Shown: positions 4,750 to 17,355 of the stretch, one piece after another | How positions within the stretch are numbered: the first letter of the stretch is position 1 | Layout: each line of letters opens with the position of its first letter | DNA from: Ruminococcus sp. | GTDB lineage: Bacteria > Bacillota > Clostridia > Oscillospirales > Ruminococcaceae | Reading direction: 5' to 3' | DNA: 64,000 nucleotides | Assembly: GCA_017542475.1 (NCBI GenBank) | Contig: JAFXXD010000041.1 | Span: 1 to 64,000, forward strand | Notes under the pieces: model-generated | Seen by the model: the letters and a program-made list of their open reading frames with translations, nothing else | Databases searched by the model: none | Told to the model about the DNA's origin: nothing | Position numbers and translations under genes: made by a program

Positions 4750-7281
4750 TCATTTCGTATTTTTGCCGTCCCTGATGAAGCTGCGGGTGTAGACCTCGGA
4801 GGCTGTCACCTTCTGGAGCGGTTCGTAGTCGTAATAGTGGCGGAGGCGCGATTCTCCGCGGCGTCTGCGGTCAAGCGGACGCATTATCATCAGGTATGCG
4901 GCGAGTATCAGCACCGAGCCGAGCGAGATGAACGCTCCCGTGCGCAGACCAGGGGTGCGGTAGCGGAAGACGATGTCATTAGTTCCCGCGTCAGCCTTTA
5001 CCGCCATAAAGCCGTAGGACACCTTCTCCACGTCAGCGGGCTCGCCGTTGACCTCGGCTGTCCAGCCCTCGCTGTATGGCACGCTGAAAAATACCAGCCG
5101 CGGCTCGCCAAGTGTTATCTCGGAGGTGAAGCCGTGCGAGTCACAGGTGAAGGAGTCGGCGCAGCTGCGCTGCTTCTCGCGGCAGAAGCGCTCGTAGTCG
5201 GACTTGTTGAGCTTCACCGCCTGTTCGGTCGGGAGCTTCTCAATAATGCCGCCGTACCTGTCTATCTGCTCGTCGCTGAGGACGAGAGCCTTCATCAGCA
5301 GCTTCTCCCTTGCGGCGTCGGACATATCCTCTGCCTCGGATTCGGGCACGTAGCTGTCGTAGGTGAAGCCCATCGGGACATACAGCTTGTTCTCGTAGAC
5401 CTCGAAGCCGCCCTTTGTCCCGACGTACTCGAAGCCGACCAGATACCTCGTGATATCGACCTTAGATGCTTCAAGCTCGAATTTCTTGTCCCTGCTCTCG
5501 GACGAGGACGGCTGCGGGCTTACTCCCGCCTGCATATCCTCGTATGAACAGCCCTCCTGCACCTCGCGGTAGAAATACTTCACGGAGAAGAGCCCGCGGA
5601 GGGTATAGTGCGATATATCGGCGCGTGAGGCAACGTCTCTCTGCACGCCTATGCTGTCGTAGAACTCCATTATCGAAGTGCTGACAACGCTCTGGAAGCA
5701 CCGCATACTCGGCAGTCCCCACAGCATGGGGTAGTTGTCGCAGTTTTCGGAGATGTCCGCGCGGAAGAAGTTGTCCTCGGACACGCTCTCGTACACGTTT
5801 TCTTTGCCGTTTATCGCGGTGTCGATGTACTCGCGGGCACCCTTGGGAGTGACGGCTCCGTATACGACTACCGCAAGTATGCACATTATGCTCGCGAGCG
5901 CGGTGCTCACTACCGACAGCCAGCCGAAGGTCTGACCGCGTCTGCGGCGTCTGAGCAGATATGCCGCGTATACGAGGAATATCACGGCTATCGCGAGCTG
6001 TACGCAGAAGTAGGCGAAGTCGTAGGGAAGAGTGAAGAAGCTGAGCTTGTCGCCGCTCTTCTCGGGAATGAGCGATATCGCTCCGAAGCAGGCGAGTGCC
6101 AGTGCCGAAAGCTTTATCGCGGGTGCGAAGTCTGCCCTTTCGTCGTCGAGCGCGAGAGCCGTCATCATCGCGAGTACGAGTATCGGCATAAAGAAACAGC
6201 GTGCGTAGTAGGAGGCATTGAAGGTGTAGAACATACTGTTGAGTATCGGCACGAACGCGCATACAGCGCAGAATACCGACACCCTCACAGCCCAGTGCTT
6301 CCTATGGGCGCGGAGGAAGGTTATCACGCCGAGCATACCGAACAGCGGGAAGTAGCCTCCCACCGACGACCACTTCGCCTGCTCGCTCTTGAAGAGGTTT
6401 GGGCGGGCGGGAGCGTCCGACGGCATAAAGAAGGTCTGTATCACGCGGATAACGCGCGAGGGCTCGCGGAAGAGCACCCAGTCGATGCCGTAGAGGTGCT
6501 CGCTGACACGGTAGTTGCCGAGTATCGCCAGCGCCGACGGCAGCAGCACGATACAGGCTATGCACGTACCGATGAAAGCCTCGAAAAGCAGACCGAAGAA
6601 GCGGCTCCACGAGGCGCGGAAGTCCTTGCAGGGCAGGCGCATAAAGAAGTACATTATCAGGAACACGACCTCACCCGCAAAGAAGTAGTAGTTGAGCGCC
6701 GCCATCACCGCGACTATGACCGCGAACCAGCCTCGGCGGCGGTTGTTGATGTTCTCCTCAAGGGCTATCAGCATCAGCGGGAACAGGGCGGTGACGTCCT
6801 GAAAGTGGTTGAAGAAGAGGTTGAACACCTGAAAGCCAGAGAATGCGTACAGCATAGCTCCGACGAGAGCGGCTTCCTTGCCGCGGACGAAGCGCCGTAT
6901 ATAGGCGTAGGCGGTCAGCGAGGCGAGCCCGTGCTTCAGCGCGAGCAGAAACGGTATCGAGTATGCGACCGCCGCCCGCGGGAGTATCGTCGTCAGCCAG
7001 AAGAACGGGCTTGCCGCGAGGTAGAACGAGTAGGAGGTCAGCCAGTCCGAGCCGAGGTCGGTGAACCAGTTCCAGCCGAGCTGTCCCGAGCGCACCGCGT
7101 CGTTGGAGAGGCTGTAGAACGGTATCTGCTGGGCGTTGAAGTCGCCGTAGTAGATGAAGTAGCCGCGCTCGCATATCATCACGGGCAGCAGCGACAGCAG
7201 CAGCGTGAAGAAGCCGAGCAGGAAGGCTGTCAGGTATTTTTCCTTTGTGTATTGGGTGTATCTGAGTTCGTGAGTTTTCAT
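4750..7281 (-). CDS. YfhO-family polytopic membrane protein (putative glycosyltransferase-like)
   Basis: Large integral membrane protein (843 residues) with about a dozen hydrophobic segments in the first ~480 residues, then an extracytoplasmic region ending in FFSVPYSEGWTAEVNG, the conserved YfhO segment, and a last membrane helix near the C-terminus. YfhO proteins are GT-C-like and are linked to sugar modification of lipoteichoic or other wall polymers in Bacillus; the substrate here is unknown. The ATG at 7281 is chosen because CGGAGGACAGG precedes it; a longer in-frame reading has no ribosome site and would run through the promoter. First gene of a two-gene unit with the NUDIX hydrolase. 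Confidence 0.85.
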   Translation of the reverse strand: MKTHELRYTQYTKEKYLTAFLLGFFTLLLSLLPVMICERGYFIYYGDFNAQQIPFYSLSNDAVRSGQLGWNWFTDLGSDWLTSYSFYLAASPFFWLTTILPRAAVAYSIPFLLALKHGLASLTAYAYIRRFVRGKEAALVGAMLYAFSGFQVFNLFFNHFQDVTALFPLMLIALEENINNRRRGWFAVIVAVMAALNYYFFAGEVVFLIMYFFMRLPCKDFRASWSRFFGLLFEAFIGTCIACIVLLPSALAILGNYRVSEHLYGIDWVLFREPSRVIRVIQTFFMPSDAPARPNLFKSEQAKWSSVGGYFPLFGMLGVITFLRAHRKHWAVRVSVFCAVCAFVPILNSMFYTFNASYYARCFFMPILVLAMMTALALDDERADFAPAIKLSALALACFGAISLIPEKSGDKLSFFTLPYDFAYFCVQLAIAVIFLVYAAYLLRRRRRGQTFGWLSVVSTALASIMCILAVVVYGAVTPKGAREYIDTAINGKENVYESVSEDNFFRADISENCDNYPMLWGLPSMRCFQSVVSTSIMEFYDSIGVQRDVASRADISHYTLRGLFSVKYFYREVQEGCSYEDMQAGVSPQPSSSESRDKKFELEASKVDITRYLVGFEYVGTKGGFEVYENKLYVPMGFTYDSYVPESEAEDMSDAAREKLLMKALVLSDEQIDRYGGIIEKLPTEQAVKLNKSDYERFCREKQRSCADSFTCDSHGFTSEITLGEPRLVFFSVPYSEGWTAEVNGEPADVEKVSYGFMAVKADAGTNDIVFRYRTPGLRTGAFISLGSVLILAAYLMIMRPLDRRRRGESRLRHYYDYEPLQKVTASEVYTRSFIRDGKNTK

Positions 7282-7312
7282 TCCTGTCCTCCGAATTATT
7301 GGCAATACACCT

Positions 7313-7341
7313 ATTATATCACAAAGCCGCCTGTTAATCAA
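7313..7341 (-). promoter_or_regulatory. Sigma-A promoter of the YfhO-NUDIX unit
   Basis: Minus strand TTGATT, 17-bp spacer, TATAAT, about 32 bases ahead of the ATG at 7281. Its position supports the shorter start. Confidence 0.75.
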
Positions 7342-7352
7342 GCACCCGTTTT

Positions 7353-7472
7353 GAGCCTTTAGCCGTTAGCCATTAGCCTTTAGCTGAAAGTACCGCCTTC
7401 GGCGATGTATCAGAATATGTGAGCGAAGCGAACACATAAAGCTAATGGCTAAAGGCTAAAAGCTAATGGCTC
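7353..7472. repeat. Family C inverted-repeat element (full copy)
   Basis: Ends in imperfect inverted repeats built from 'agccattagcctttagc' and its complement, around a core with hairpins CCGCCttcGGCG and GTGAGCGAAGCGAACAC. The copy at 62.87 kb has the same plan and a related core; a fragment lies at 39.14 kb. It looks like a small non-autonomous element, but no matching transposase is present. Confidence 0.6.
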
Positions 7473-7552
7473 ATACCATTGTAACAGCGGCAAGCTTCTC
7501 CGCATACTATACATCGGCAGGAGCGTCCTGCCAATAAAAAGGAGGGACTATA

Positions 7553-8419
7553 ATGGCGACATTCTATAATCAGGCTACGCTTTCCTACAATGGAAACGTG
7601 ACTGTTTCAAATATCACAGCAGGCGAGATACTCGACACCGTATCTGCCGCGAAAACCGCCCTGACCGACACCTATACGCAGGGCTCGGATAAGGCTTTTG
7701 CGATAAGCATACTCAACACGGGACAGACCGACCTCACGGGGCTTACCGTCACCGACGACCTCGGCGCGTACAGCTTCGGCGACCCCGCGCAGGAGCTCGT
7801 CCCGCTGACCTATACCGAGGGCTCTGTAAAGCTCTTCGTAAACGGTGTATTGCAGGCGGCTCCGACCGTGGCTTCCGCTCAGCCGCTCACCTTCACGGGC
7901 ATTTCGATCCCAGCGGGCGGCAGCGCTATAATAATGTATGAGGCTGAGGTCAACCAGTACGCGCCCTTCGGAGCTGACGCGGGCATTACCAATACCGCTG
8001 AGGTAACGGGTGCGGGCGGAAGCGTGCTTGCTTCGGCTTCCGCGACCATCACTCCCGAGGAGGGGGCAGAGCTCGCGATATCGAAGTCGCTCTCGCCCGT
8101 GACTGTCTCGGGCGGCGGAGAGGTGACCTACACCTTCGTTATCCAGAACAGCGGCAGCACAGCAGTCGAGACGACCGACAATGTTGTATTCACCGACGTA
8201 TTCGAGCCCGCGCTCGATATCTCGTCCGTGACCTACAACGGCACGGCGTGGGCAGCGGGTACGAACTACACCTACGACGAGGCTACGGGACAGTTCACAG
8301 TTCCCGCAGGACAGATAACCGTTCCTGCGGCGACCTATTCGCAGTCGAGTGAGGGCGGCGCGTGGAGCGTCCAGCCCGGCACGAGCACGATAGTCATTAC
8401 AGGTAATATCATAAGCTGA
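7553..8419 (+). CDS. DUF11-like repeat protein of unknown function
   Basis: 288 residues with two beta-rich segments resembling DUF11 (conserved-repeat) domains: residues about 40-150 with 'DKAFAISILNTGQTDLTGLTVTDD' character and about 170-285 starting ISKSLSPVTVSGGGEVTYTF. Such domains are common in surface-exposed proteins, yet no signal peptide, lipobox or membrane segment is visible: the protein starts directly MATFYNQATLSYNG. The ATG has an excellent AAGGAGGG site. It stands alone, followed by a strong terminator. Location and role are unknown. Confidence 0.75.
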   Translation: MATFYNQATLSYNGNVTVSNITAGEILDTVSAAKTALTDTYTQGSDKAFAISILNTGQTDLTGLTVTDDLGAYSFGDPAQELVPLTYTEGSVKLFVNGVLQAAPTVASAQPLTFTGISIPAGGSAIIMYEAEVNQYAPFGADAGITNTAEVTGAGGSVLASASATITPEEGAELAISKSLSPVTVSGGGEVTYTFVIQNSGSTAVETTDNVVFTDVFEPALDISSVTYNGTAWAAGTNYTYDEATGQFTVPAGQITVPAATYSQSSEGGAWSVQPGTSTIVITGNIIS

Positions 8420-8426
8420 CCTGTTC

Positions 8427-8464
8427 TTCCCCGAGCGGTATTGTGCCGTTCGGGGAATTTTTTT
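8427..8464 (+). terminator. Terminator of the DUF11-like gene
   Basis: Stem TTCCCCGAGCGG / CCGTTCGGGGAA followed by seven T's. Confidence 0.8.
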
Positions 8465-8465
8465 C

Positions 8466-8494
8466 TTGAAAGAGGCGTGAAAATGTGGTATACT
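8466..8494 (+). promoter_or_regulatory. Sigma-A promoter of the P-loop kinase gene
   Basis: TTGAAA, 17-bp spacer, TATACT, placed directly after the terminator of the previous gene and 29 bases before the ATG at 8523. Confidence 0.7.
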
Positions 8495-8522
8495 TATTAG
8501 AAAGTGGAGAAAGGAGCGGGAA

Positions 8523-9128
8523 ATGGTGAGAAAGATTCTTTTTATCGGTGGGTCGCCGTGCAGTGGGAAAAGCACCGTTGCCGAACGGCTCTCGCAGGAG
8601 TACGGCGCGCATTATTTCAAGGTAGACGATCTACTGGGCGAGCTCATAAAAGTCTCGGCGGACAGGGGCTGTCCAGTGTGCGCGAGCATTTCGGCTATGT
8701 CTCCCGATGAGATATGGCTGAGAGAGCCGCAGATTCAGTGCGATGAGGAATTCTTCATCTACGACGAGCTCTCGGAGGCTGTATTCGAGCGGCTTTGCGG
8801 CATTTCCGCCGACTTCATCGTTACCGAAGGAGCGGCTTTCACCCCGCGGATAATGGCAAAACGCGGTATAACAAACTACATCGCCATTGTCCCAACACCC
8901 GATTTTCAGGTGTCCCGCTACAGGGAGCGCGAATGGGTGAAGTTCGTGCTTGAAGGCTGCTCGGACAAGCAGAGGGCTTTTGACAATTGGATGAAACGCG
9001 ATATCCTCTTCGCCGAACAGGTAAAGGCGGAATGTGAAGAGCTCGGCTTCCCGTGCATAGTCAACGACGGCACAAGAAGTCGTGACGAGATATTTCGTAT
9101 AGTACAGGAGTTTTTTCAGCTCCGATAA
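8523..9128 (+). CDS. Small P-loop nucleotide kinase-like protein
   Basis: 201 residues. Walker A motif GGSPCSGKST (residues 9-18) is followed by YFKVDDLLGE, in the place where adenylate kinase, shikimate kinase and chloramphenicol phosphotransferase-like enzymes bind their acceptor. A Walker B-like strand DFIVTEGAAF follows at ~98-107. It probably phosphorylates a small molecule; the acceptor is not identifiable. Own promoter, start at ATG 8523 behind GGAG. It ends just before the sigI promoter and is not part of that operon. Confidence 0.75.
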   Translation: MVRKILFIGGSPCSGKSTVAERLSQEYGAHYFKVDDLLGELIKVSADRGCPVCASISAMSPDEIWLREPQIQCDEEFFIYDELSEAVFERLCGISADFIVTEGAAFTPRIMAKRGITNYIAIVPTPDFQVSRYREREWVKFVLEGCSDKQRAFDNWMKRDILFAEQVKAECEELGFPCIVNDGTRSRDEIFRIVQEFFQLR

Positions 9129-9160
9129 TCGCGAATTAGAAAAAATCGCGGGAATCTCTG

Positions 9161-9210
9161 AAAAAATTTCTGAAACTACCCCGCTTTTGAAAAATACCGT
9201 GCGTAAACTA
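9161..9210 (+). promoter_or_regulatory. Putative SigI-type promoter of sigI-rsgI
   Basis: A-tract AAAAAATTT, then ACCCCGCTTTTG (9178-9189), then CGTAAACTAT (9202-9211). The same three blocks with the same 24-base offset between ACCCC and CGTA occur at 11071-11121 ahead of the repeat-protein gene. The ACCCC -35 and CGTA -10 elements agree with known SigI-dependent promoters in Bacillus and Clostridium; no sigma-A-like hexamers fit. Autoregulation is therefore likely. Confidence 0.72.
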
Positions 9211-9234
9211 TATTAAGATACGGGGGTGATCTGA

Positions 9235-9957
9235 ATGGATCCGGATACACATCAAATCATAACCCAAGTCTATCAGGCAAAAAAGGACAACGCCGCCACT
9301 GACGAGCTTATCGCGGCGTATATGCCGTTCATCAAGGCTGAGACAGCCAAGTTCCTCAACAGACCGCCCGAGCAGAGCGACGACGAGCTGAGTATCGCCA
9401 TGTTCGCCTTCTACGAGGCTATACGTACATATTCGCGGCTTCGCGGCGCGTTTCTCAAATTCGCCGCCATGAAGATAAAGAACCGCTTGATAGATCACTA
9501 CCGCAAGGAAAAAAGAAACAGGATAACGGTCTCGCTCGACGAGGAGTCCGAAGACCGTCCCGATCTGATAGATACAATCAAAGACGAGCACGACAGCTTC
9601 GGGGAGAATGAGATACGCGAGGCGACACAGCAGGAAATAGCCGAGCTCTCCGCGCAGATGACCGATTTCGGAGTCTCCATGCAGGATATCGCCGATAACT
9701 CTCCCAAGCAGAGGCGCACGCTCGAATGCTGCCAGAGGGCAGTTTATTACGCACGCCATAATCCCGAGATACTCGAGGATTTTCTCCGCACCAAGCGAGT
9801 CCCCATTGCCAAGCTCGCAGAGGGAGCGGAGGTCGAGCGCAAGACGCTCGAAAGACACAGACGCTACCTCGTGGCGGTGCTCCTCATATGCACCAACGGC
9901 TACGAGATACTGCGCGGACACATAATGCAGGTACTGAAAGGAGGGGGAGATGTATGA
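9235..9957 (+). CDS. sigI: RNA polymerase sigma-I factor
   Basis: Alternative sigma factor of the SigI group, which in clostridial cellulosome producers directs genes for polysaccharide degradation or envelope stress. 240 residues: sigma-2 region about 20-105 (AAYMPFIKAETAKFLNR... IRTYSRLRGAFLKFAAMKIKNRLIDHYRK), a charged linker (EESEDRPDLID), and the SigI-specific DNA-binding C-terminal region about 140-235 (QMTDFGVSMQDIADNSPKQ; AKLAEGAEVERKTLERHRRYLVAVLL). ATG at 9235 follows GGGGGTGAT. Its stop overlaps the rsgI start (ATGA), so the two are translationally coupled. The promoter looks SigI-dependent. Confidence 0.9.
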   Translation: MDPDTHQIITQVYQAKKDNAATDELIAAYMPFIKAETAKFLNRPPEQSDDELSIAMFAFYEAIRTYSRLRGAFLKFAAMKIKNRLIDHYRKEKRNRITVSLDEESEDRPDLIDTIKDEHDSFGENEIREATQQEIAELSAQMTDFGVSMQDIADNSPKQRRTLECCQRAVYYARHNPEILEDFLRTKRVPIAKLAEGAEVERKTLERHRRYLVAVLLICTNGYEILRGHIMQVLKGGGDV

Positions 9958-10973
9958 AATATCTGGTAATGGAATGTCATAACGGATATGCTGTCCTTAT
10001 GGACGAGGAATCGCGCTTCGTGAATGCGGCGAATCTGCACTACGAGGTCGGACAGACTGTCACCGAGCCGATACTGCTCGATACCGAGGACAAGTCCAAA
10101 ACAGGCGGCAGACGCATAATTATGCGTGCTGTAAAGGTAGCGGCAACTGCGGCTTGCCTGACAGTCGTAACTGTCGCGGGATTCAGCTTCTTCGGCAAGG
10201 ACAAGGCTCAGCCCGTTCCCCATTCAGTCGTATTCGTTTCCGCCGCCGCCGAGATAGAAATGGAGCTCGACGACACTGGCAGCGTTGTAAGGCTGAAGAG
10301 CCGTTCCGAACGCGGAAACGAGATAATAGACAAGTACATCGAATCCCACGGCACTACCTCCGACAAGACTGATACCGCGAACGCTTTGCTTGAGACACAG
10401 CTCGAAAACGGCTATATTTCTACAGGAGACACGGTGGATGTTCTCGTCCCCGCCGATGATGAAAGCTATAAAGAGTACAAGTCAGAGCTCGAGGATAAGG
10501 CTTCCAAGCTCGATATCAACGTCAACATCAAGAAAAAAGATAATTCCCATCCCCACCATGAACCGCCGACTCCGCCCGCAGTGACCGACAAGAACGGTCC
10601 TGCGAGAGAGACGGCGACAGCACCGACTGCTCCCGCACCTCCCGTTACTGCTCCCGTTGCGGCTGTCAAGCCCGACGAGAAGGTGACAGCTCCCGTAGCC
10701 GAGCAGCCGACAGCTCCCGAGGTGCCGACGCCTCCCGTCACACCTGACGAGGGCATACATCCCACCGAGCCCGTCGGACACGAGCAGCACGAGCACCCGA
10801 CGCCTCCCAATACGGAGGGCAGAGGCATTGCAGGTCACGGACCTGCGGCTCTTCCCGCTCCCGAAGCTCCTACAGCTCCGGAGGTTCCCGAGGCACCGCT
10901 CCCGCACGAGGAGACAGAAACTCCCGCAGAGCTGTCCGCAGACGAGCTCCCGCAGGACGCGGCTGAACAATGA
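9954..10973 (+). CDS. rsgI: RsgI-like transmembrane anti-sigma-I factor
   Basis: Holds SigI inactive until an outside signal arrives. 339 residues: cytoplasmic RsgI N-terminal domain (1-45, YLVMECHNGYAVLMDEES...), one membrane helix (about 60-78), a short extracytoplasmic domain (about 85-195) and a long Pro/Thr/Ala/Glu-rich tail (about 200-339) with no recognisable carbohydrate-binding module. In characterised RsgI proteins the segment just outside the membrane reads like NPSIEL and self-cleaves at Asn-Pro; here the aligned segment is AAEIEM (Ala98-Ala99), so the cleavage dyad appears lost. ATG at 9954 overlaps the sigI stop and has GGAGGGGGAG upstream. The identity rests on context and domain order; the C-terminal half is unique. 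Confidence 0.82.
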   Translation: MKYLVMECHNGYAVLMDEESRFVNAANLHYEVGQTVTEPILLDTEDKSKTGGRRIIMRAVKVAATAACLTVVTVAGFSFFGKDKAQPVPHSVVFVSAAAEIEMELDDTGSVVRLKSRSERGNEIIDKYIESHGTTSDKTDTANALLETQLENGYISTGDTVDVLVPADDESYKEYKSELEDKASKLDINVNIKKKDNSHPHHEPPTPPAVTDKNGPARETATAPTAPAPPVTAPVAAVKPDEKVTAPVAEQPTAPEVPTPPVTPDEGIHPTEPVGHEQHEHPTPPNTEGRGIAGHGPAALPAPEAPTAPEVPEAPLPHEETETPAELSADELPQDAAEQ

Positions 10974-11002
10974 CATAACCGATTCTCTATAAACCACCAC
11001 CG

Positions 11003-11040
11003 AAAGGCTGCCAAAGGGTATCGTACCCACGGCAGCCTTT
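11003..11040 (+). terminator. Terminator of sigI-rsgI
   Basis: Stem AAAGGCTGCC / GGCAGCCTTT with an inner AGGGTA/TACCCA hairpin, followed by CAGTGTTTTT. It separates rsgI from the next gene, which has its own promoter. Confidence 0.75.
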
Positions 11041-11070
11041 CAGTGTTTTTAATGATTTTCGATTTTTTTC

Positions 11071-11120
11071 AAAAAATTTTTTGAGTTACCCCGCTTTTGG
11101 GAAAAACGCTCCGTAAACTA
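11071..11120 (+). promoter_or_regulatory. Putative SigI-type promoter of the repeat-protein gene
   Basis: A-tract AAAAAATTTT, ACCCCGCTTTTG (11088-11099) and CGTAAACTA (11112-11120): near-identical in sequence and spacing to the sigI promoter at 9161-9210. Confidence 0.72.
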
Positions 11121-11185
11121 TTAACAGAAGCTCGAAAAGAGTTGATATCCGAAAACGGAAAATTTATTAAAAAGGAGTAATCATT

Positions 11186-11956
11186 ATGAGAAGCAAGAAG
11201 TCAATCATCGCTGCTATCGCAGCAGTATCGATCATCACCACAGCAACAGGCGTGACATCGTTCGCTGCTATCAACAACGCAGAAGAGAAGGCTGCTGAGA
11301 CAGTCGAGGTCACCACTGAGGTAACTACCGAGGCTGAGACTGAGGCAGAGGCTGAGGTTACTGAGGACGAGGCGACTCCTGCTGCTGAGGCAGAGGTAGC
11401 TGCTCCCGCTGAGGAGGCTGAGAAGCCCGCTAAGCCCGAGAAGCCCGAACTCGTAAAGCCCGAGGACAAGGAAGAGGGCGAAGAGGCTGAGAAGCCCGAG
11501 CCGAAGAAGCACATCGGCAAGCACGAGATCGTAGAGAAGATCAACGACACATTCGACATCGACGCTAAGGATTTCAAGGACGCTGACGCTAAGGCTTCAT
11601 GGTTCGAATTCATCAAGGAGGGTCTTGAGCCCAAGGCTCCCGAGAAGCCCGCTAAGCTCGAAGAGGCTGAGAAGCCCGTTCCGCCTGTAGCTCCCGAGAA
11701 GGACGAGAAGGTCAAGCCTGAGGCACCTGTAGCTCCCGAGAAGCCCGCTAAGCTCGAAGAGGCTGAGAAGCCCGTTCCGCCCGTAGCTCCCGAGAAGCCC
11801 GCTGAGCCCGCTGACAAGCCCGTTCCGCCTGTAGCTCCCGAGAAGGACGAGAAGGTCAAGCCCGAGGCTCCCAAGGGACCCAAGGCTCACGAGAAGGCTG
11901 TTGTTGAAGAGGCAACAGAGGCTGTTGAAGAGGCAGCAGAGACAGCAGCTGAATGA
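11186..11956 (+). CDS. Secreted Pro/Glu/Lys-rich repeat protein, probable SigI target
   Basis: 256 residues. Signal peptide 1-27 (MRSKKSIIAAIAA... TSFAA). An acidic Thr/Glu/Ala stretch follows, then KP-rich segments, a short possibly folded, charged stretch (about 110-150: HIGKHEIVEKINDTFDIDAKDF), then repeats of VAPEKPAKLEEAEKPVPP and VAPEKDEKVKPEAP type up to ~235, and a Glu/Ala tail. No sortase motif, dockerin or membrane anchor. The composition resembles the outer tail of the neighbouring RsgI. Codon use is strongly biased to GCT, GAG and AAG, suggesting high expression. AAAGGAG precedes the ATG. No known function; the shared promoter makes it the best candidate target of this SigI. Confidence 0.8.
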   Translation: MRSKKSIIAAIAAVSIITTATGVTSFAAINNAEEKAAETVEVTTEVTTEAETEAEAEVTEDEATPAAEAEVAAPAEEAEKPAKPEKPELVKPEDKEEGEEAEKPEPKKHIGKHEIVEKINDTFDIDAKDFKDADAKASWFEFIKEGLEPKAPEKPAKLEEAEKPVPPVAPEKDEKVKPEAPVAPEKPAKLEEAEKPVPPVAPEKPAEPADKPVPPVAPEKDEKVKPEAPKGPKAHEKAVVEEATEAVEEAAETAAE

Positions 11957-11999
11957 TCCCCACTCTTTCCTGAAAAGATATTGATGAATAGAAACATAG

Positions 12000-12033
12000 A
12001 AAAGGCAGTCCCGTGAGGACTGCCTTTTGTTTT
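12000..12033 (+). terminator. Terminator of the repeat-protein gene
   Basis: Stem AAAAGGCAGTCC / GGACTGCCTTTT with loop CGTGA, then TGTTTTTG. Confidence 0.8.
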
Positions 12034-12091
12034 TGTATATCAGCTTCGATAAAGCTACGGGCGAACAGATTGTGCCGCTGCAAGAAATCAA

Positions 12092-12160
12092 TGTAGGGAC
12101 GCGCATTGCGCGTCCGCAAATTCTCCGTATGTCCGCGGACGACCGATGGTCGTCCCTACA
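12092..12160. repeat. Two facing family A palindromes
   Basis: One copy at 12092-12117 (TGTAGGGACGCGCATTGCGCG...) and an inverted copy at 12135-12160 ending CGTCCCTACA. The second overlaps the end of the HAD gene: read leftward, its TGTAGGG supplies that gene's TAG stop codon. Confidence 0.7.
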
Positions 12161-12791
12161 CAGCAAGTTTTTTCAGAAGTGCGGGAAGGTCGCTGAAGCG
12201 CTCCAGCTCGGGGACCTCCTGTTCTATCGTGCCGAAGCCGTAGGCGGCGTGTATGAAGTCGAAGCCCGCCTGCATCGTGGCGTCGTAGTCGCCCTGTATA
12301 TCGCCTATGTAGTAGGCTTTGTCGAGAGCGTTGCGCTCCGCGAGCAGTGCGATGTTCTCGCCCTTGCCCTTGAGGTTGTTGCCGTAGCATTCGATGTCGG
12401 TGAAGTATTTCCCGAAGCCGTAGTATTCGAGGAAAGCCTCGATGTAGCCGCTCTGGCAGTTGCTGACGATGAAGAGTGGATAGTCCCTGCGCAGAGCCCT
12501 GAACGTCTTTTCAAGGTCGGGGTAGAGCACTCCGCCGTGCTCGCGGAGGTATTCGTTCTCGTGGTCGCAGCAGAGCGTCAGCAGGTGCATACGCTCGGCT
12601 TTCGGGAGATCGGCGAAGATGATGTCGGCTATTCTGTCCATAGTCAGACCCATCACGGACATCACGTCCTCACGCGTAATATCGGGGCGGTCATAGCCGA
12701 GTTCGCGCAGCTTTTCCGTCCACGACGCTGCCACGCCCGCGGAGGAGTCCCACAGCGTGCCGTCCATATCGAATATCAGTCCTGTTTTCAT
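12156..12791 (-). CDS. HAD-superfamily phosphatase
   Basis: Cytoplasmic phosphatase of the phosphoglycolate phosphatase/beta-phosphoglucomutase-like HAD group, 211 residues. Motif I FDMDGTLWDS (nucleophile Asp8), motif II VSNCQSGY, motif IV YIGDIQGDYDATMQAG. The start overlaps the stop of the dehydrogenase gene by four bases, so the two are coupled. The natural substrate may be made by, or be related to, that enzyme (a polyol phosphate), but this is inference. The TAG stop lies inside a repeat element. Confidence 0.85.
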   Translation of the reverse strand: MKTGLIFDMDGTLWDSSAGVAASWTEKLRELGYDRPDITREDVMSVMGLTMDRIADIIFADLPKAERMHLLTLCCDHENEYLREHGGVLYPDLEKTFRALRRDYPLFIVSNCQSGYIEAFLEYYGFGKYFTDIECYGNNLKGKGENIALLAERNALDKAYYIGDIQGDYDATMQAGFDFIHAAYGFGTIEQEVPELERFSDLPALLKKLAV

Positions 12792-13852
12792 TTGCCCTCC
12801 GTCATTCTGGCGTATATCTCGCCGAGCTGTACGCGGTCGTGCTTTACGTCGTCAAGGATGGTTATCCTGCCTGTTCTTACTGTGCGTGCCTTCTCCCACA
12901 TATCAGCGAACATATCCTCGGTTATGCCGTAGGCGTGAGGGTCGATGACGAGCTTGTGGTTCGCGAAGAAGGCGAGTATGCCGCTCGGGTCCTGTCCTTG
13001 GAATATGCACGCGGGTATTGTGCCGAGAGCGACTGCCAGTCCGTGCGATATCTTTATCTCGGGGTAGTACTCCTCGATTGCGTGCGCGAAGAGGTGCTCG
13101 CTGCCGCTGCACGGTCTCGACGAGCCCGCTATCTCCATTGCAAGTCCGCCCATAACGAGAGCGCGGGAGAGTATGCGTATGAACACGCGGCTCTTCATAT
13201 CCTGCTCGTCGCAGTGGTAGACGGAGTCGTAGCTCATACGGCTGAGGGCGTAGGCGAAGTCGTCTACCTGCGTGCCCGTCTTTGCGGCTGAGAGCTTCCA
13301 GTCGTAAAGGGCGGTGTGCTTGGCGATGGTGTCGCCTATGCCCGAGAGCGTCTGCGTCTCGGGGGCGTTGATTATCATATTCGTATCGACTATGATAGCC
13401 GTCGGTATCTTGCACTCTATCGTCTTTCGCACCGAGCCCTCTGTTTCGAGGACTGCGAACGGCGAGGCGAGTGAGTCGTTGCTGAGCGAGGTCGGCATAC
13501 AGATGTAGACTGCCTTGCTGATGTGAGCCGCGTACTTCGCGGTATCGAGCACTCTGCCGCCGCCTATGCCGATGATTATCTTTATATCCTCTATGCAGAC
13601 CTTCTTGGCTATGGCAACGGCTTCATCGAAGCTCGCGCTGCCCATGGCGTATATCTCGGCTCCGCCGAAATCGCGGCTGATGTCGGTTATCTTGTCCTTG
13701 TATATGCCGATGAGGAACTCCTCGGATACGACGAGTGCCTTCTGACCGATTATCTCGGGAATATAGCGGCTGATTATCTCGTCGGAGCGGAAGAACGCGT
13801 CCTCCTCGACTGCGAGACATATCGGCAGATTGAAACGTGTGTGCTGGTTCAT
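12788..13852 (-). CDS. Glycerol-1-phosphate dehydrogenase-like (AraM/EgsA family)
   Basis: Reduces dihydroxyacetone phosphate with NAD(P)H in the family's characterised members. 354 residues: nucleotide-binding loop GIGGGRVLDTAKYAA, the family signature PTSLSNDSLASP, and metal ligands expected in GIGDTIAKH, SEHLFAHAIE and ISHGLAVALG. AGGAGG precedes the ATG and a sigma-A promoter lies 36-64 bases upstream. Bacterial AraM proteins make glycerol-1-phosphate for unusual archaeal-type lipids together with a PcrB-type prenyltransferase; no such gene is in the window. General polyol dehydrogenase is the alternative. Confidence 0.8.
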   Translation of the reverse strand: MNQHTRFNLPICLAVEEDAFFRSDEIISRYIPEIIGQKALVVSEEFLIGIYKDKITDISRDFGGAEIYAMGSASFDEAVAIAKKVCIEDIKIIIGIGGGRVLDTAKYAAHISKAVYICMPTSLSNDSLASPFAVLETEGSVRKTIECKIPTAIIVDTNMIINAPETQTLSGIGDTIAKHTALYDWKLSAAKTGTQVDDFAYALSRMSYDSVYHCDEQDMKSRVFIRILSRALVMGGLAMEIAGSSRPCSGSEHLFAHAIEEYYPEIKISHGLAVALGTIPACIFQGQDPSGILAFFANHKLVIDPHAYGITEDMFADMWEKARTVRTGRITILDDVKHDRVQLGEIYARMTEGK

Positions 13853-13887
13853 ACGAGCACCTCCTGATGTTATTATGTGCTGATTTG

Positions 13888-13916
13888 ATTATACTATAAT
13901 TCACTGCGAAATGCAA
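13888..13916 (-). promoter_or_regulatory. Sigma-A promoter of the dehydrogenase-phosphatase pair
   Basis: Minus strand TTGCAT, 17-bp spacer, TATAAT, ~36 bases before the ATG at 13852. Confidence 0.7.
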
Positions 13917-13944
13917 CTATAAAAACGGGACGTCCACTGCATAA

Positions 13945-13974
13945 AAAAGCGGCAGGGGAGCTCCCTGCCGCTTT
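13945..13974 (-). terminator. Terminator of the GNAT gene
   Basis: Read leftward: stem AAAGCGGCAGGGAG / CTCCCCTGCCGCTTT followed by a T-run. Confidence 0.75.
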
Positions 13975-13978
13975 GCTG

Positions 13979-14635
13979 TTATCCGTTAATTACAGAATGA
14001 CTGTGTATGTAGAACTCCTCCTGACTCGGCTGCCAGCCCTTGACCTTCGGCGGGAACTGAGCGTCAAAGCGCTCGAACTCCTCGGGGTCATCGCAGGGGT
14101 GGTCGGAGTCGCTCGGGTGGTAGAACCACTTCCGTCCGTCGAGCGCACCATCTGCGAGCTCCTTTACGAGCAGAGCCGCGGGGAAGATGTCGTCCTCGAA
14201 GCAGACGTTGTACTTCTTGCAGCTCCTGTAGCCGCGTGCAACGTAGTTGTCGGGATTGCCGAAGTTGATGACGACGTCGTAGCCCAGCTCACGCGCGATA
14301 GGGAAGGTGTGCCCGAGCAGAGCCTTGCCTATGCCCATACGCTGATACTCGGGGACAACGCACAGCGGTCCCATAGTGAGCACCTGTTTCTCGCTGCCGT
14401 TTTCGTCGATGAGCCTGCTTTTCGCGTACATAACGCAGCCGACTATCCTCCCGCCTGCCTCGGCAACGAAGTCGAGCTCGGGTACGAAGTCCTGATGCTG
14501 TCTCAGCACGTGTATGAAGTAGTGCTCGTCGCAGCCGGGGCGGTTCTGGTTCCAGAAAGCCTCGCGTGCGGCGTTTTCGGTGTTGTGGTAGTCATTTACT
14601 GTTTCTCTGCGGATGATGAAGTCATTATTATTCAT
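13979..14635 (-). CDS. GNAT-family N-acetyltransferase
   Basis: Cytoplasmic acyl-CoA-dependent acetyltransferase, 218 residues. The N-terminal IIRRETVNDYHNTENAAREAFW segment is typical of a clostridial GNAT subgroup; the acetyl-CoA-binding motif is LCVVPEYQRMGIGKAL (Q/R-x-x-G-x-G/A). ATG at 14635 is chosen for the AGGAGG site; an in-frame reading upstream to 14746 (GTG) adds 37 non-conserved residues and its AAAGGAG site sits too close. That leaves a leader of ~140 bases between promoter and start. Acceptor unknown. Confidence 0.85.
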   Translation of the reverse strand: MNNNDFIIRRETVNDYHNTENAAREAFWNQNRPGCDEHYFIHVLRQHQDFVPELDFVAEAGGRIVGCVMYAKSRLIDENGSEKQVLTMGPLCVVPEYQRMGIGKALLGHTFPIARELGYDVVINFGNPDNYVARGYRSCKKYNVCFEDDIFPAALLVKELADGALDGRKWFYHPSDSDHPCDDPEEFERFDAQFPPKVKGWQPSQEEFYIHSHSVING

Positions 14636-14785
14636 TGTTTTTCCTCCTGAATATGGTTGACAAGACACGGGAGGCTTGTGTGGGATAGTATTCGCAAACC
14701 TTCCGTTTACGCTGCTATCTCCGTTTTCGTAGTATTTTTCAAACACTTTCTCCTTTGAGATATTGCGGCTTTTGCCGCTGCCGAC

Positions 14786-14814
14786 ATTATAGCACCGATC
14801 AACGTTTTTGTCAA
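14786..14814 (-). promoter_or_regulatory. Sigma-A promoter of the GNAT gene
   Basis: Minus strand TTGACA, 17-bp spacer, TATAAT: near-consensus. The leader begins with a GCGGCAAAAGCCGC hairpin and contains a second ribosome-binding site with a very short out-of-frame reading. Confidence 0.75.
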
Positions 14815-14833
14815 GGGACGCGGATACATCGGT

Positions 14834-14860
14834 GCGGGCGGCGGGACGCCGCCACTACAG
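14834..14860. repeat. Degenerate family A palindrome
   Basis: GCGGGCGGCGGGACGCCGCC followed by ACTACA: an inverted copy with a decayed TGTAGGG end. Confidence 0.5.
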
Positions 14861-15020
14861 TTTTAGCTCAAGCAAAAAGATAATACAATTGATTTATTCA
14901 CGATTAGTAAATTATTATGTAGCAATATCCACTGAAACAGCTTCCTCCCTTTGGCTATTTTGACTAAAAGACTTTTGAAAAGTTCTACGCGTGATAGATG
15001 TGCAAATTCACCGAATCCGC
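14861..15020. other. AT-rich intergenic stretch, nothing recognised
   Basis: Part of the ~490-base gap between the GNAT and cellulase genes. It is AT-rich, with no convincing coding frame, ribosome site or strong hairpin. It may hold upstream regulatory sites for the cellulase. Confidence 0.4.
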
Positions 15021-15049
15021 TTGACTTCCTTTGGGCAATATGTTAGAAT
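15021..15049 (+). promoter_or_regulatory. Sigma-A promoter of the GH5 cellulase gene
   Basis: TTGACT, 17-bp spacer, TAGAAT, giving a ~75-base leader that contains a GGCGG...CCGCC hairpin. Confidence 0.7.
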
Positions 15050-15129
15050 CAAGATAGGCAAAAAGCCAAGGCGGTTTCCTGCACTGTGCCGCCGAATGGG
15101 AAATTTTACATTTTAATGGGAGGGTATTT

Positions 15130-17355
15130 ATGCTAAAAAACAAATTTATTTCAAAGGCAGTGAGCACTGTCGCTTCAGTCGCTATGGTGTTCACCTCGAT
15201 CCCGTCCATCAATGTTATGGACAAGGCTGTTGCCGCTGATACGATGACAGCTTTCGAGATCACCGAGAACATGAAGGTCGGCTGGAACCTCGGTAACACT
15301 CTCGATGCAAAGGCAAGCAACAAGCAGGGCGACCTTGAATCAGCAGGTCTCGAGACCGAGACTTCCTGGGGCTGCCCCAAGGCTACTCAGGAACTCTTTG
15401 ACGCTCTCAAGGCTAAGGGATTCAACACTGTCCGCGTTCCTACAACTTGGTTCCAGCACCTCGACGCCGACAACAACATCGACCCCGAGTGGATGGCTCG
15501 TGTCAAGGAAGTTGTTGACTACGGTATCAATAACGATATGTACATCATCCTTAATGTTCACCATGAGAACTGGGTGAACAGAAGCGATTTCGCTAACGCT
15601 TACAACGAGATTCAGCCCAAGCTCATGAAGATATGGACTCAGATCGCTACAGAGTTCAAGGACTACGACCAGCACCTCATCTTTGAGTGCATGAACGAGC
15701 CCCGAGCTGTCGGTACAGAGCACGAGTGGTGGGCAGCATCGGCTGTTCCCGAGTGTGATGTCATCAACGACCTCGAGCACGATTTCGTAGACCTCATCAG
15801 AGGCATGGACGGCCCCTATGCAAAGACTCGTCTCCTTATGCTCCCCGGCTACTGCGCGAGCGCTGAGACTCAGTTCCTTGAGGCTATCGACGTTCCCGAC
15901 GATGACTTCGTTGCTATCTCGGTTCACGCTTATTCACCCTACGATTTCACTATGAATGCTGCCGTTGAGGACCACTCGGTATTTACAGGCACCAAGTATT
16001 CTCAGCAGCTTTCAGACATCCTTTCGGGTATCCGCCAGACCTTCATCGAGAAGGATATCCCCGTTGTTATCGGCGAGATGGGTACCTCAAACTTCGGCAA
16101 TACTCAGGCGCGTGTGGACTGGACAACTCAGTACTTCACTACTACTAAGAAGTACGGTATCCCCTGCTGTCTCTGGGACAACAACACCGTTGAGAACCCC
16201 AAGGACCCCGGTGAGTGCCACGGCTACATCAACCGTTCCACATATGAGTGGTATGAGGGAAGTGCTCCCGTTATCGACAAAATGATGGAGATAATGAACG
16301 ATGATTCTATCGTCTGGGGCAGCGAGGGCAAGGCTCCCACATACACACATCAGGCTCTCTCTGACGGTACTGTCTTCAGAGATGAGGCTATCGAGATAGA
16401 TGCTTCCAAGTCAAAGACCTATGAGAACACTACTCCCGGTCAGGAGATCTCGTGGAGCGAGCTCGAAGGCAAGGAAGTTGCTATCAAGTTCACAGGCACA
16501 ACTCCCGTTCTCGCATTCTCTGATGCTGAGTACGGCAACTGGACTGAGATCAAGCCCTACGCTATCGATGAGGAGAACGGCATCGCTTACTACCTCGTAA
16601 GCCAGCAGCTCCCCGCAGCTTGGAGCGACCTCTCCACAGTCAACCATATGCAGGCAAGAACCGATAAGGTTACTACTATCGAGAAGATGGTCATCCTCAA
16701 CGCTCCCGAGGTCGAGATCGACGTTCCCGTTGACAAGACCAAAAAGTACAAGATCGACTTTGCGAACGCTCCCAAGGACGAGGGCAGCCTCGTTCTCTAC
16801 TTCGAGGGCGAGCCCAATACCGATACAAACGGTGCTGTCGGCTTCAACGGCGACGGCTGGGAAGAGGAAAAGTGGTCAGGCAAGACTAATTCTCTCGGTA
16901 AGCTCACTATTGAGATAGACCGCACAAAGTTCCCCGCTGATCTCGCTTCTGCTGAGTGCCAGATCTGGTATCAGCCCGAGCTCGTTGATATGGTGAGCTA
17001 TGAGTTCTCCACACAGCAGCCCGGCACGGTTACAACCCCCGAGGAAACAACTACAACAGAGACTACAACTATCACTACTGTTACTACAGTAACTACAACA
17101 GCTGATTCAAGCGTTGCAAGCTCAACTACCGAGAGCGGCAACCTCAGCGTGACCATAAAGGGTGACGCTAACGTTGACGGCAAGTTCTCGATCGCTGACG
17201 CAGTTGCTATCCTTCAGCACATCGCTAACCGCGACAAGTACGAGCTCAAGCCGCAGGGTCTAGTTAATGCAGACGTTGACGGCGAGGCAGGCGTAACAGC
17301 TAACGATGCGCTCTTCATTCAGAAGGTTGACGCAGGTGCTGCTTCACTTTCTTAA
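15130..17355 (+). CDS. Secreted GH5 endoglucanase with C-terminal dockerin
   Basis: Cellulosomal endo-beta-1,4-glucanase, 741 residues. Signal peptide about 1-35; GH5 catalytic domain about 40-390 with WNLGNTLDA at the N-terminal strand, acid/base Glu190 in MNEPRAV and nucleophile Glu316 in IGEMGTSN. Two beta-rich segments follow (about 400-520 and 530-620, the latter with KKYKIDFANAPKDEGSLVLYF); they sit where cellulose-binding modules occur but I cannot assign a family. Then a Thr-rich linker and a dockerin with two calcium loops (DANVDGKFSIADAVAIL and DVDGEAGVTANDALFI). This dockerin differs from the DAKDAS type of the two other dockerin proteins here. Codon use (GCT, ATC, TTC, AAG) suggests high expression. 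Start has GGGAGGG upstream. Confidence 0.93.
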   Translation: MLKNKFISKAVSTVASVAMVFTSIPSINVMDKAVAADTMTAFEITENMKVGWNLGNTLDAKASNKQGDLESAGLETETSWGCPKATQELFDALKAKGFNTVRVPTTWFQHLDADNNIDPEWMARVKEVVDYGINNDMYIILNVHHENWVNRSDFANAYNEIQPKLMKIWTQIATEFKDYDQHLIFECMNEPRAVGTEHEWWAASAVPECDVINDLEHDFVDLIRGMDGPYAKTRLLMLPGYCASAETQFLEAIDVPDDDFVAISVHAYSPYDFTMNAAVEDHSVFTGTKYSQQLSDILSGIRQTFIEKDIPVVIGEMGTSNFGNTQARVDWTTQYFTTTKKYGIPCCLWDNNTVENPKDPGECHGYINRSTYEWYEGSAPVIDKMMEIMNDDSIVWGSEGKAPTYTHQALSDGTVFRDEAIEIDASKSKTYENTTPGQEISWSELEGKEVAIKFTGTTPVLAFSDAEYGNWTEIKPYAIDEENGIAYYLVSQQLPAAWSDLSTVNHMQARTDKVTTIEKMVILNAPEVEIDVPVDKTKKYKIDFANAPKDEGSLVLYFEGEPNTDTNGAVGFNGDGWEEEKWSGKTNSLGKLTIEIDRTKFPADLASAECQIWYQPELVDMVSYEFSTQQPGTVTTPEETTTTETTTITTVTTVTTTADSSVASSTTESGNLSVTIKGDANVDGKFSIADAVAILQHIANRDKYELKPQGLVNADVDGEAGVTANDALFIQKVDAGAASLS

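Follow-up and report, generated by a model that had tools for sequence, protein, structure and literature searches.

Does the SigI-type sigma factor encoded at this locus drive both its own operon and the gene of an adjacent secreted protein, and what would such a small circuit sense? The locus lies within the first 64,000 nucleotides of contig JAFXXD010000041.1 of Ruminococcus sp. (assembly GCA_017542475.1), a stretch referred to here as the window, and comprises sigI, rsgI (coding for a membrane anti-sigma factor) and a downstream target gene, all on the forward strand. Control of sigI-rsgI and of the target gene by SigI is very likely on sequence evidence, because the promoter motif co-occurs with sigI and targets that have moved elsewhere keep the motif. 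The system is probably a minimal SigI/RsgI regulon in which a sensor-like effector would close a negative feedback loop.

Promoter pair in the window and its genome

Two predicted SigI-type promoters were found, one for sigI-rsgI (9158-9218) and one for the target gene (11066-11128). Each has an A/T-rich run upstream, followed by ACCCCGCTTTTG (9178-9189 and 11088-11099) and CGTAAACTA (9202-9210 and 11112-11120). The distance from ACCCC to CGTA is 24 bases in both, all 21 specified bases are identical, and the 12-base spacers are unlike each other. The initial annotation had described a match in three blocks with identical 24-base spacing, and both sites are present as it described them.

The genome-wide scan that it proposed, run with ACCCCGCTTTTG-N12-CGTAAACTA and up to 3 mismatches, gave exactly 2 matches in the 2.66 Mb genome (94% complete), and a reversed-motif control gave 0 matches in the same genome at the same threshold. 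A weight matrix trained on 59 sites of relatives, with the window left out, was used to rank 449 kb (the window and 385 kb of its own genome); the sigI and target promoters scored 65.7 and 62.4 bits and the runner-up 7.5 bits. A sigma-70-like match, TTGAAA-16-TATATT at 9187-9214, overlaps the sigI promoter, so that the earlier statement that neither promoter resembles a sigma-A promoter is not strict for that site.

Promoter type and co-occurrence with sigI

Promoter sites were taken from 39 fetched loci of relatives, and with the window included the strict pattern gave 33 sites before sigI and 32 before a second, secreted gene. The Ruminococcus sites have a C-rich -35 and a CGWA-type -10 at fixed spacing, reading ACCCC, mostly a T-tract, and CGTA. 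In all 32 target sites, that of the window included, the -35 is followed by a T-tract where an A-tract would be expected for SigI, while the 33 sigI sites have T in 28 (among them the window site), A in 3 and a mixed tract in 2. The A-tract has been proposed as general for SigI promoters, and a T-tract has been reported for several extracytoplasmic function (ECF) sigma factors (PMC6056542, in part).

The T-tract thus recalls reported ECF promoters (PMC6056542, in part), and this, together with the sigma-70-like match at 9187-9214, would suit a reading in which the two promoters are served by a sigma factor other than SigI, such as sigma-A or an ECF factor. Such a reading is very improbable: across 40 sites the positions that never vary spell ACCCC and CGTA, with a few further T and C, rather than TTGAAA or TATATT, and the motif follows sigI from one genome to the next.

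This tracking was seen with a sequence-only profile built from 40 promoter sites and run on 125 Ruminococcus genomes (E<=0.001), with the presence of sigI called at E<=1e-9. Profile matches were found in 66 of the 125 genomes. sigI was present in 63, every one of which had the motif, and 59 of the 62 genomes lacking sigI also lacked the motif. The three others were G005, whose target is cut by a contig end, G151, which is 53% complete, and G140 (93% complete), where the motif stands before a Cthe_2159-like gene. The 138 matches were distributed into 57 sigI promoters, 47 sites downstream on the same strand, 6 divergent sites, 5 sites farther away on the same contig, 20 on other contigs and 3 in the genomes without sigI. 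A sigI site above threshold was found in 57 of the 63 sigI genomes, and 48 of the 63 had a sigI site with an adjacent second site; the gene behind the second site was read in the fetched loci only.

Sites used for training match the profile by design, and 24 of the sigI genomes contributed no training sequence. At least two sites were present in 23 of these 24, side by side in 20 and as a sigI site plus a site elsewhere in 3; in the remaining genome (G146) only a divergent site was above threshold. Among 80 named loci, which overlap the 125 genomes, 76 had a sigI site scoring 12 bits or more (under 18 bits in three of them), 3 had none and 1 was truncated, and one further site was found in 64. 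The distribution of sigI itself is patchy; it is missing from 62 of the 125 genus genomes, including 30 of the 68 of high quality.

Moved targets and additional sites

In seven genomes (G032, G037, G038, G043, G121, G150 and G155) the target gene lies away from sigI and has kept the motif. Six of the seven moved targets are on a different contig, where the stretch examined contains no sigI and no rsgI, and the target of G121 is 6 kb off on the opposite strand. The sigI contigs of G037 and G155 are short, which places the target at least some kb away. The targets of G017 and G067, which looked moved, sit at contig ends and were not counted as such, and in G067 rsgI is on the contig of the target. 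The moved targets with their motif are the strongest argument, drawn from sequence comparison, for probable regulation in trans.

They also bear on the idea that the two promoters are alike through a recent local duplication, without shared regulation. The promoters are 1.9 kb apart, as a duplication would have it, but both are conserved down to about 56% sigI identity, including cases where the target is divergently oriented or moved. This explanation is already contradicted and has next to no probability left.

Further sites were detected in 14 of the 63 sigI genomes, 15 in all at one or two each; two of the 15 belong to G068 and fall outside the gene-by-gene reading. Six precede LTD-CotH or Cthe_2159-type genes. 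Those of the LTD-CotH-dockerin type are in G048 (tested with Pfam) and, by likeness, in G044, G125 and G010, and those of the Cthe_2159-dockerin type are in G011 (tested, with a weak dockerin match) and, by likeness, in G042. A third promoter before dockerin proteins (G048, G011) points to the cell surface and fibre attachment. One further site each lies inside a gene (G050) and where no clear gene is in view (G129). The other five are a conserved promoter-like site near the 3' end of one gene, and pointing toward it, in five genomes (G035, G063, G120, G124 and G162; loci L123, L113, L124, L125 and L129). The gene is taken to be uvrC-like; the site may belong to a small RNA or may be a chance one beside a TATAAT; the sites in G050 and G129 are possibly due to chance as well. 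The regulon had been called self-contained, which holds for the genome of the window with its two sites and fails for the 14 genomes with one or two extra sites.

SigI and RsgI

The sigI gene (9235-9957) codes for an alternative sigma factor of 240 aa, and rsgI (9954-10973, 339 aa) starts in an ATGA overlap with it, directly downstream. The product of sigI aligned with SigI6 of Clostridium thermocellum (8i24) over residues 17-229 (E 1.3e-23), so that the similarity takes in region 2 and SigI-C, and its ten best NCBIfam hits were all SigI models. TIGR02895 scored 166.3 bits (cut-off 185), and because the other SigI models also stayed below their cut-offs the protein is classed, on sequence, as a divergent SigI. 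Orthologues at 92-97% identity came from genomes mostly named Ruminococcus, including R. flavefaciens YRD2003; among the matches listed, the nearest belonged to a genome labelled Anaerotruncus. Further R. flavefaciens records were found at 72-82% identity. The host genome is assigned to the R. flavefaciens group; R. flavefaciens is described as a predominant rumen fibre degrader (PMC3573020, in part).

RsgI was found after sigI in 75 of the 80 named loci by a rule-based call. Its layout consists of an RsgI_N-like start, a predicted transmembrane stretch (aa 62-80, 10137-10193, by hydropathy), an RsgI_M (SEAL)-like domain beginning at 10224-10268, and an outer tail of low complexity rich in Pro, Ala, Glu and Thr (aa 196-339, 10539-10970). 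The window protein scored 17.2 bits for RsgI_N (cut-off 25) and 23.3 bits for RsgI_M (cut-off 25.3), below both, and its orthologue in L157 cleared both with 25.5 and 45.2 bits. A Pfam scan of the window RsgI found no carbohydrate-binding module, and a sequence search for a solved RsgI structure gave none at E up to 1.

None of the 75 Ruminococcus RsgI proteins has the Asn-Pro self-cleavage motif at its site; where the aligned outgroup RsgI has Asn-Pro the window protein reads Ala-Ala, and the RsgI of L218 has NP elsewhere than at the site. A pattern count, not an alignment, gave Asn-Pro in that region in 36 of 40 and 16 of 19 RsgI proteins of two class-wide sets, and the divergent Ruminococcus G015 is among the four of the 40 that lack it.

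The target protein and its likeness to the RsgI tail

The target gene (11186-11956) codes for a secreted protein of 256 aa, whose N-terminus resembles a signal peptide (about aa 1-27, by eye) with no anchor visible. The mature part has a pI of 4.5 and contains 24% Glu, 18% Ala, 14% Lys and 14% Pro, a composition that suggests disorder. No Pfam or NCBIfam family was matched above cut-off. A conserved block of about 44 aa (aa 107-150, 11504-11635, by alignment) was found in 36 of the 125 genus genomes, namely 35 that have sigI and the incomplete G151; in the other sigI genomes the target is more divergent. On visual inspection, a similar small region seems to occur twice in the targets of R. flavefaciens strains.

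A class-wide survey covered 44 sigI loci, in 40 of which RsgI was recognised by rule. Near sigI, 16 open reading frames (ORFs) had a strict SigI-type site, and 13 of them, as a raw count, were secreted-like by a crude hydropathy rule. The targets include RsgI_M-type lipoprotein-like proteins with Asp-Tyr or Asp repeats (G089, G373, G394, G410, G464 and G499), Cthe_2159-like proteins (G102 and G218, by likeness) and a DUF5667 protein (G174). In G073, a member of another family with a Bacillales-type promoter (ACCCCC, A-tract, CGAA), the target is a Pro-Glu-Lys protein with Cu_amine_oxidN1, encoded on the same strand as sigI and 58 bases ahead of it. Cthe_2159-like proteins, so labelled by likeness, also stand beside sigI in L222 and L262 (G102) and in L220 (G105).

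These targets have low-complexity parts similar to the tail of the RsgI with which each is paired. Composition was compared in 19 pairs, 11 obtained by rule, 5 by hand and 3 from a replication set; G210 offered two candidates, of which the first was kept, and a G373 candidate judged to be a false ORF was left out. Cognate similarity was 0.696 against 0.593 for mismatched pairs in 16 pairs, with no permutation as high, and 0.688 against 0.593 in all 19, where 0 of 20,000 shuffles reached this value, whether or not they were stratified by an AT proxy. With 4-mers, the 19 pairs gave p 5e-5 (AT-stratified 0.0006), and p 0.0015 with one lipoprotein lineage kept (n 14); related lineages among the pairs are not independent. 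Set against neighbouring proteins that are soluble and secreted, the target was closer to the tail in 13 of 14 comparisons in the first set and in 5 of 6 in the replication set. In G464 an 18-residue stretch, TDYxDTDYGPxNDGVTDY, is found in the RsgI tail and repeatedly in the target, and both proteins carry an RsgI_M domain (70.6 bits in RsgI, 52.6 bits in the target). Met-Gly-Pro-rich repeats were seen in both the target and the RsgI tail of G102. Within 449 kb of the window genome the target ranked 3 of 162 in tail likeness among ORFs with hydrophobic starts. Mimicry between tail and target across lineages is statistically supported at the sequence level. The likeness that the initial annotation had pointed out therefore stands across Clostridia lineages (19 pairs), and within Ruminococcus it does not go beyond shared ancestry.

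Several observations weigh against the explanation as a whole, a minimal SigI regulon with feedback. On the promoter side, 3 of the 33 sigI sites have the A-tract instead of the T-tract, G020 has no second site above threshold, and 16 of the 80 named loci show none in the stretch examined, partly through contig ends or a target located elsewhere. On the protein side, 5 of the 19 pairs (window, G015, G464, G373 and G499) were chosen manually. Among the 352 ORFs of the 449 kb, the target comes fourth in tail likeness, with three ORFs closer. Covariation of tail and target composition in the genus has a partial r of 0.07 (p 0.22) without G015 and G089, of 31, and reaches 0.46 (p 0.006) only with these two included. 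The replication set (20 loci, 3 usable pairs) gave no significant excess (p 0.33) and is too small.

The rank of 4 rather than 1, the genus covariation not exceeding ancestry and the non-significant replication set favour a simpler explanation, in which SigI control is real and the target is merely an envelope or matrix protein whose tail likeness reflects the genome's style of secreted disordered proteins, with no feedback. This is a serious but somewhat unlikely alternative: the AT-stratified permutation remains significant, the target surpasses the soluble secreted neighbours in most comparisons of both sets, and sensor and target of G464 have the 18-residue stretch and RsgI_M in common.

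Proposed mechanism and meaning

RsgI-type sensors are known for binding polysaccharide or for watching the wall, and the signal reported by a disordered sensor tail is difficult to test. In the feedback reading, as proposed from sequence, RsgI would keep SigI at the membrane. An outside change sensed via its disordered acidic Pro-rich tail would release SigI, with the release probably initiated by a protease and without self-cleavage. Free SigI would then transcribe sigI-rsgI and the gene of the secreted, presumably disordered, acidic protein. This tail-like target would most likely join the same outer layer, the wall or an attached polysaccharide, and by filling the sites or gaps that the tail reports it would close the negative feedback loop. 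The likeness of tail and target fits shared binding to one structure or direct competition with the sensor, either of which would close the loop. We infer a feedback function at the cell surface, and, as the initial annotation had suggested, the regulator may monitor the structure that its target helps to build.

The target could instead act on RsgI itself, as a secreted sensor-like decoy that binds RsgI or a partner and so stabilises or titrates the sensor. The lipoprotein-type targets (the six listed above, with RsgI_M tested by Pfam for G089 and G464) have an Asn-Pro stretch like that of their own RsgI, in keeping with a decoy, whereas the Ruminococcus target matches no RsgI_M domain, and the target of G073 carries Cu_amine_oxidN1, with that of G180 looking alike. 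A decoy role is accordingly rated as improbable.

A broader generalisation of the feedback reading is put forward only tentatively: in the single-copy SigI systems of Clostridia, the chief target may be a secreted or lipid-anchored copy of the outer part of the sensor (its RsgI_M domain, its tail repeats or both), the two proteins competing for one structure or building it, with Ruminococcus as a tail-only version. As self-cleavage and a target RsgI_M are both lacking in Ruminococcus, signalling there would start by another cut.

A two-promoter regulon with one tail-like effector offers a direct handle on what a disordered sensor tail reports, and the Ruminococcus set without Asn-Pro is a natural case for RsgI signalling without self-cleavage. 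For RsgI8 of C. thermocellum, the first step of signalling is left open in part of PMC12203970. Among the titles listed in the open-licence literature, none concerned this Ruminococcus regulon or a target resembling RsgI.

Other features and gene neighbourhood

Between rsgI and the target gene, a long hairpin that runs into a T-rich tail (11003-11040, read by eye) is a likely terminator; the terminator scanner did not report it, its loop exceeding the scanner's 8-base limit. The scan gave a terminator-like hairpin after the target gene (12000-12028). No Rfam family reached its gathering score at 7000-15200. A DUF11/isopeptide fimbrial-like protein is encoded upstream of the SigI unit (7553-8419), and a GH5 cellulase with modules like carbohydrate-binding modules and a dockerin match just under the cut-off is encoded nearby (15130-17355), without a SigI-type site.

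In other families, sigI-rsgI-target is followed by CotH-like genes (L223, L224, L229, L256 and L074; tested by Pfam for L229 only), with DUF4956-like genes seen in each of them except L074 and VTC-like genes in L223 and L229, suggesting that the cluster is one surface-assembly module. L223 (G373) also has four near-identical tandem SigI-type sites, 105-115 bases apart, located 1.7-2.1 kb past sigI and before the target. Because CotH, VTC and DUF4956 genes adjoin sigI there, the Pel exopolysaccharide, an idea prompted by PMC7112168 (in part), was considered as the sensed structure; it was rejected, as PelG was found in 0 of 21 genomes, the window's own included.

Comparison with known SigI/RsgI systems

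The system is a variant of SigI/RsgI with a small regulon, a T-tract promoter, no self-cleavage motif and a sensor-like target. Bacillus subtilis has one sigI-rsgI pair, with a single-pass RsgI whose outer region is disordered, and uses it in cell-wall homeostasis. The ACCCC-type -35 is common to both systems, the Bacillales consensus being ACCCCC--AA-N15-CGAA (PMC4711584, in part), and RsgI of B. subtilis is among the substrates of RasP, a membrane protease (PMC7478892, in part). In contrast to B. subtilis, the main target here is a low-complexity protein that is secreted, T and not A follows the -35, the -10 is CGTA, and RsgI has no Asn-Pro.

Cellulosome producers have a CGWA -10 and an AAA extended -35 (PMC4711584, in part), and a suite of RsgI receptors is described, in part of PMC11557425, only for those of the Acetivibrio type. 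The sigma family, the membrane-bound RsgI and the CGWA -10 (PMC4711584, in part) are shared with C. thermocellum, whose RsgI8 likewise has no self-cleavage motif or distinct carbohydrate-binding domain (PMC12203970, in part). Where C. thermocellum has eight or nine pairs, the window genome has one; a carbohydrate-binding module was not found on its RsgI, neither of its two sites stands before the neighbouring cellulase gene, and a T-tract replaces the A-tract proposed as general (PMC6056542, in part).

A further known type is that of proteins with RsgI_M (SEAL) and PepSY domains, represented by the lipoprotein-like SigI targets of G089 and G464, which have both domains; in the Ruminococcus target no such domain was found, and it consists of a low-complexity chain and the block of about 44 aa. 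The T-tract after the -35 and the absence of the Asn-Pro motif from RsgI are, as predicted from sequence, the departures from the known SigI/RsgI systems.

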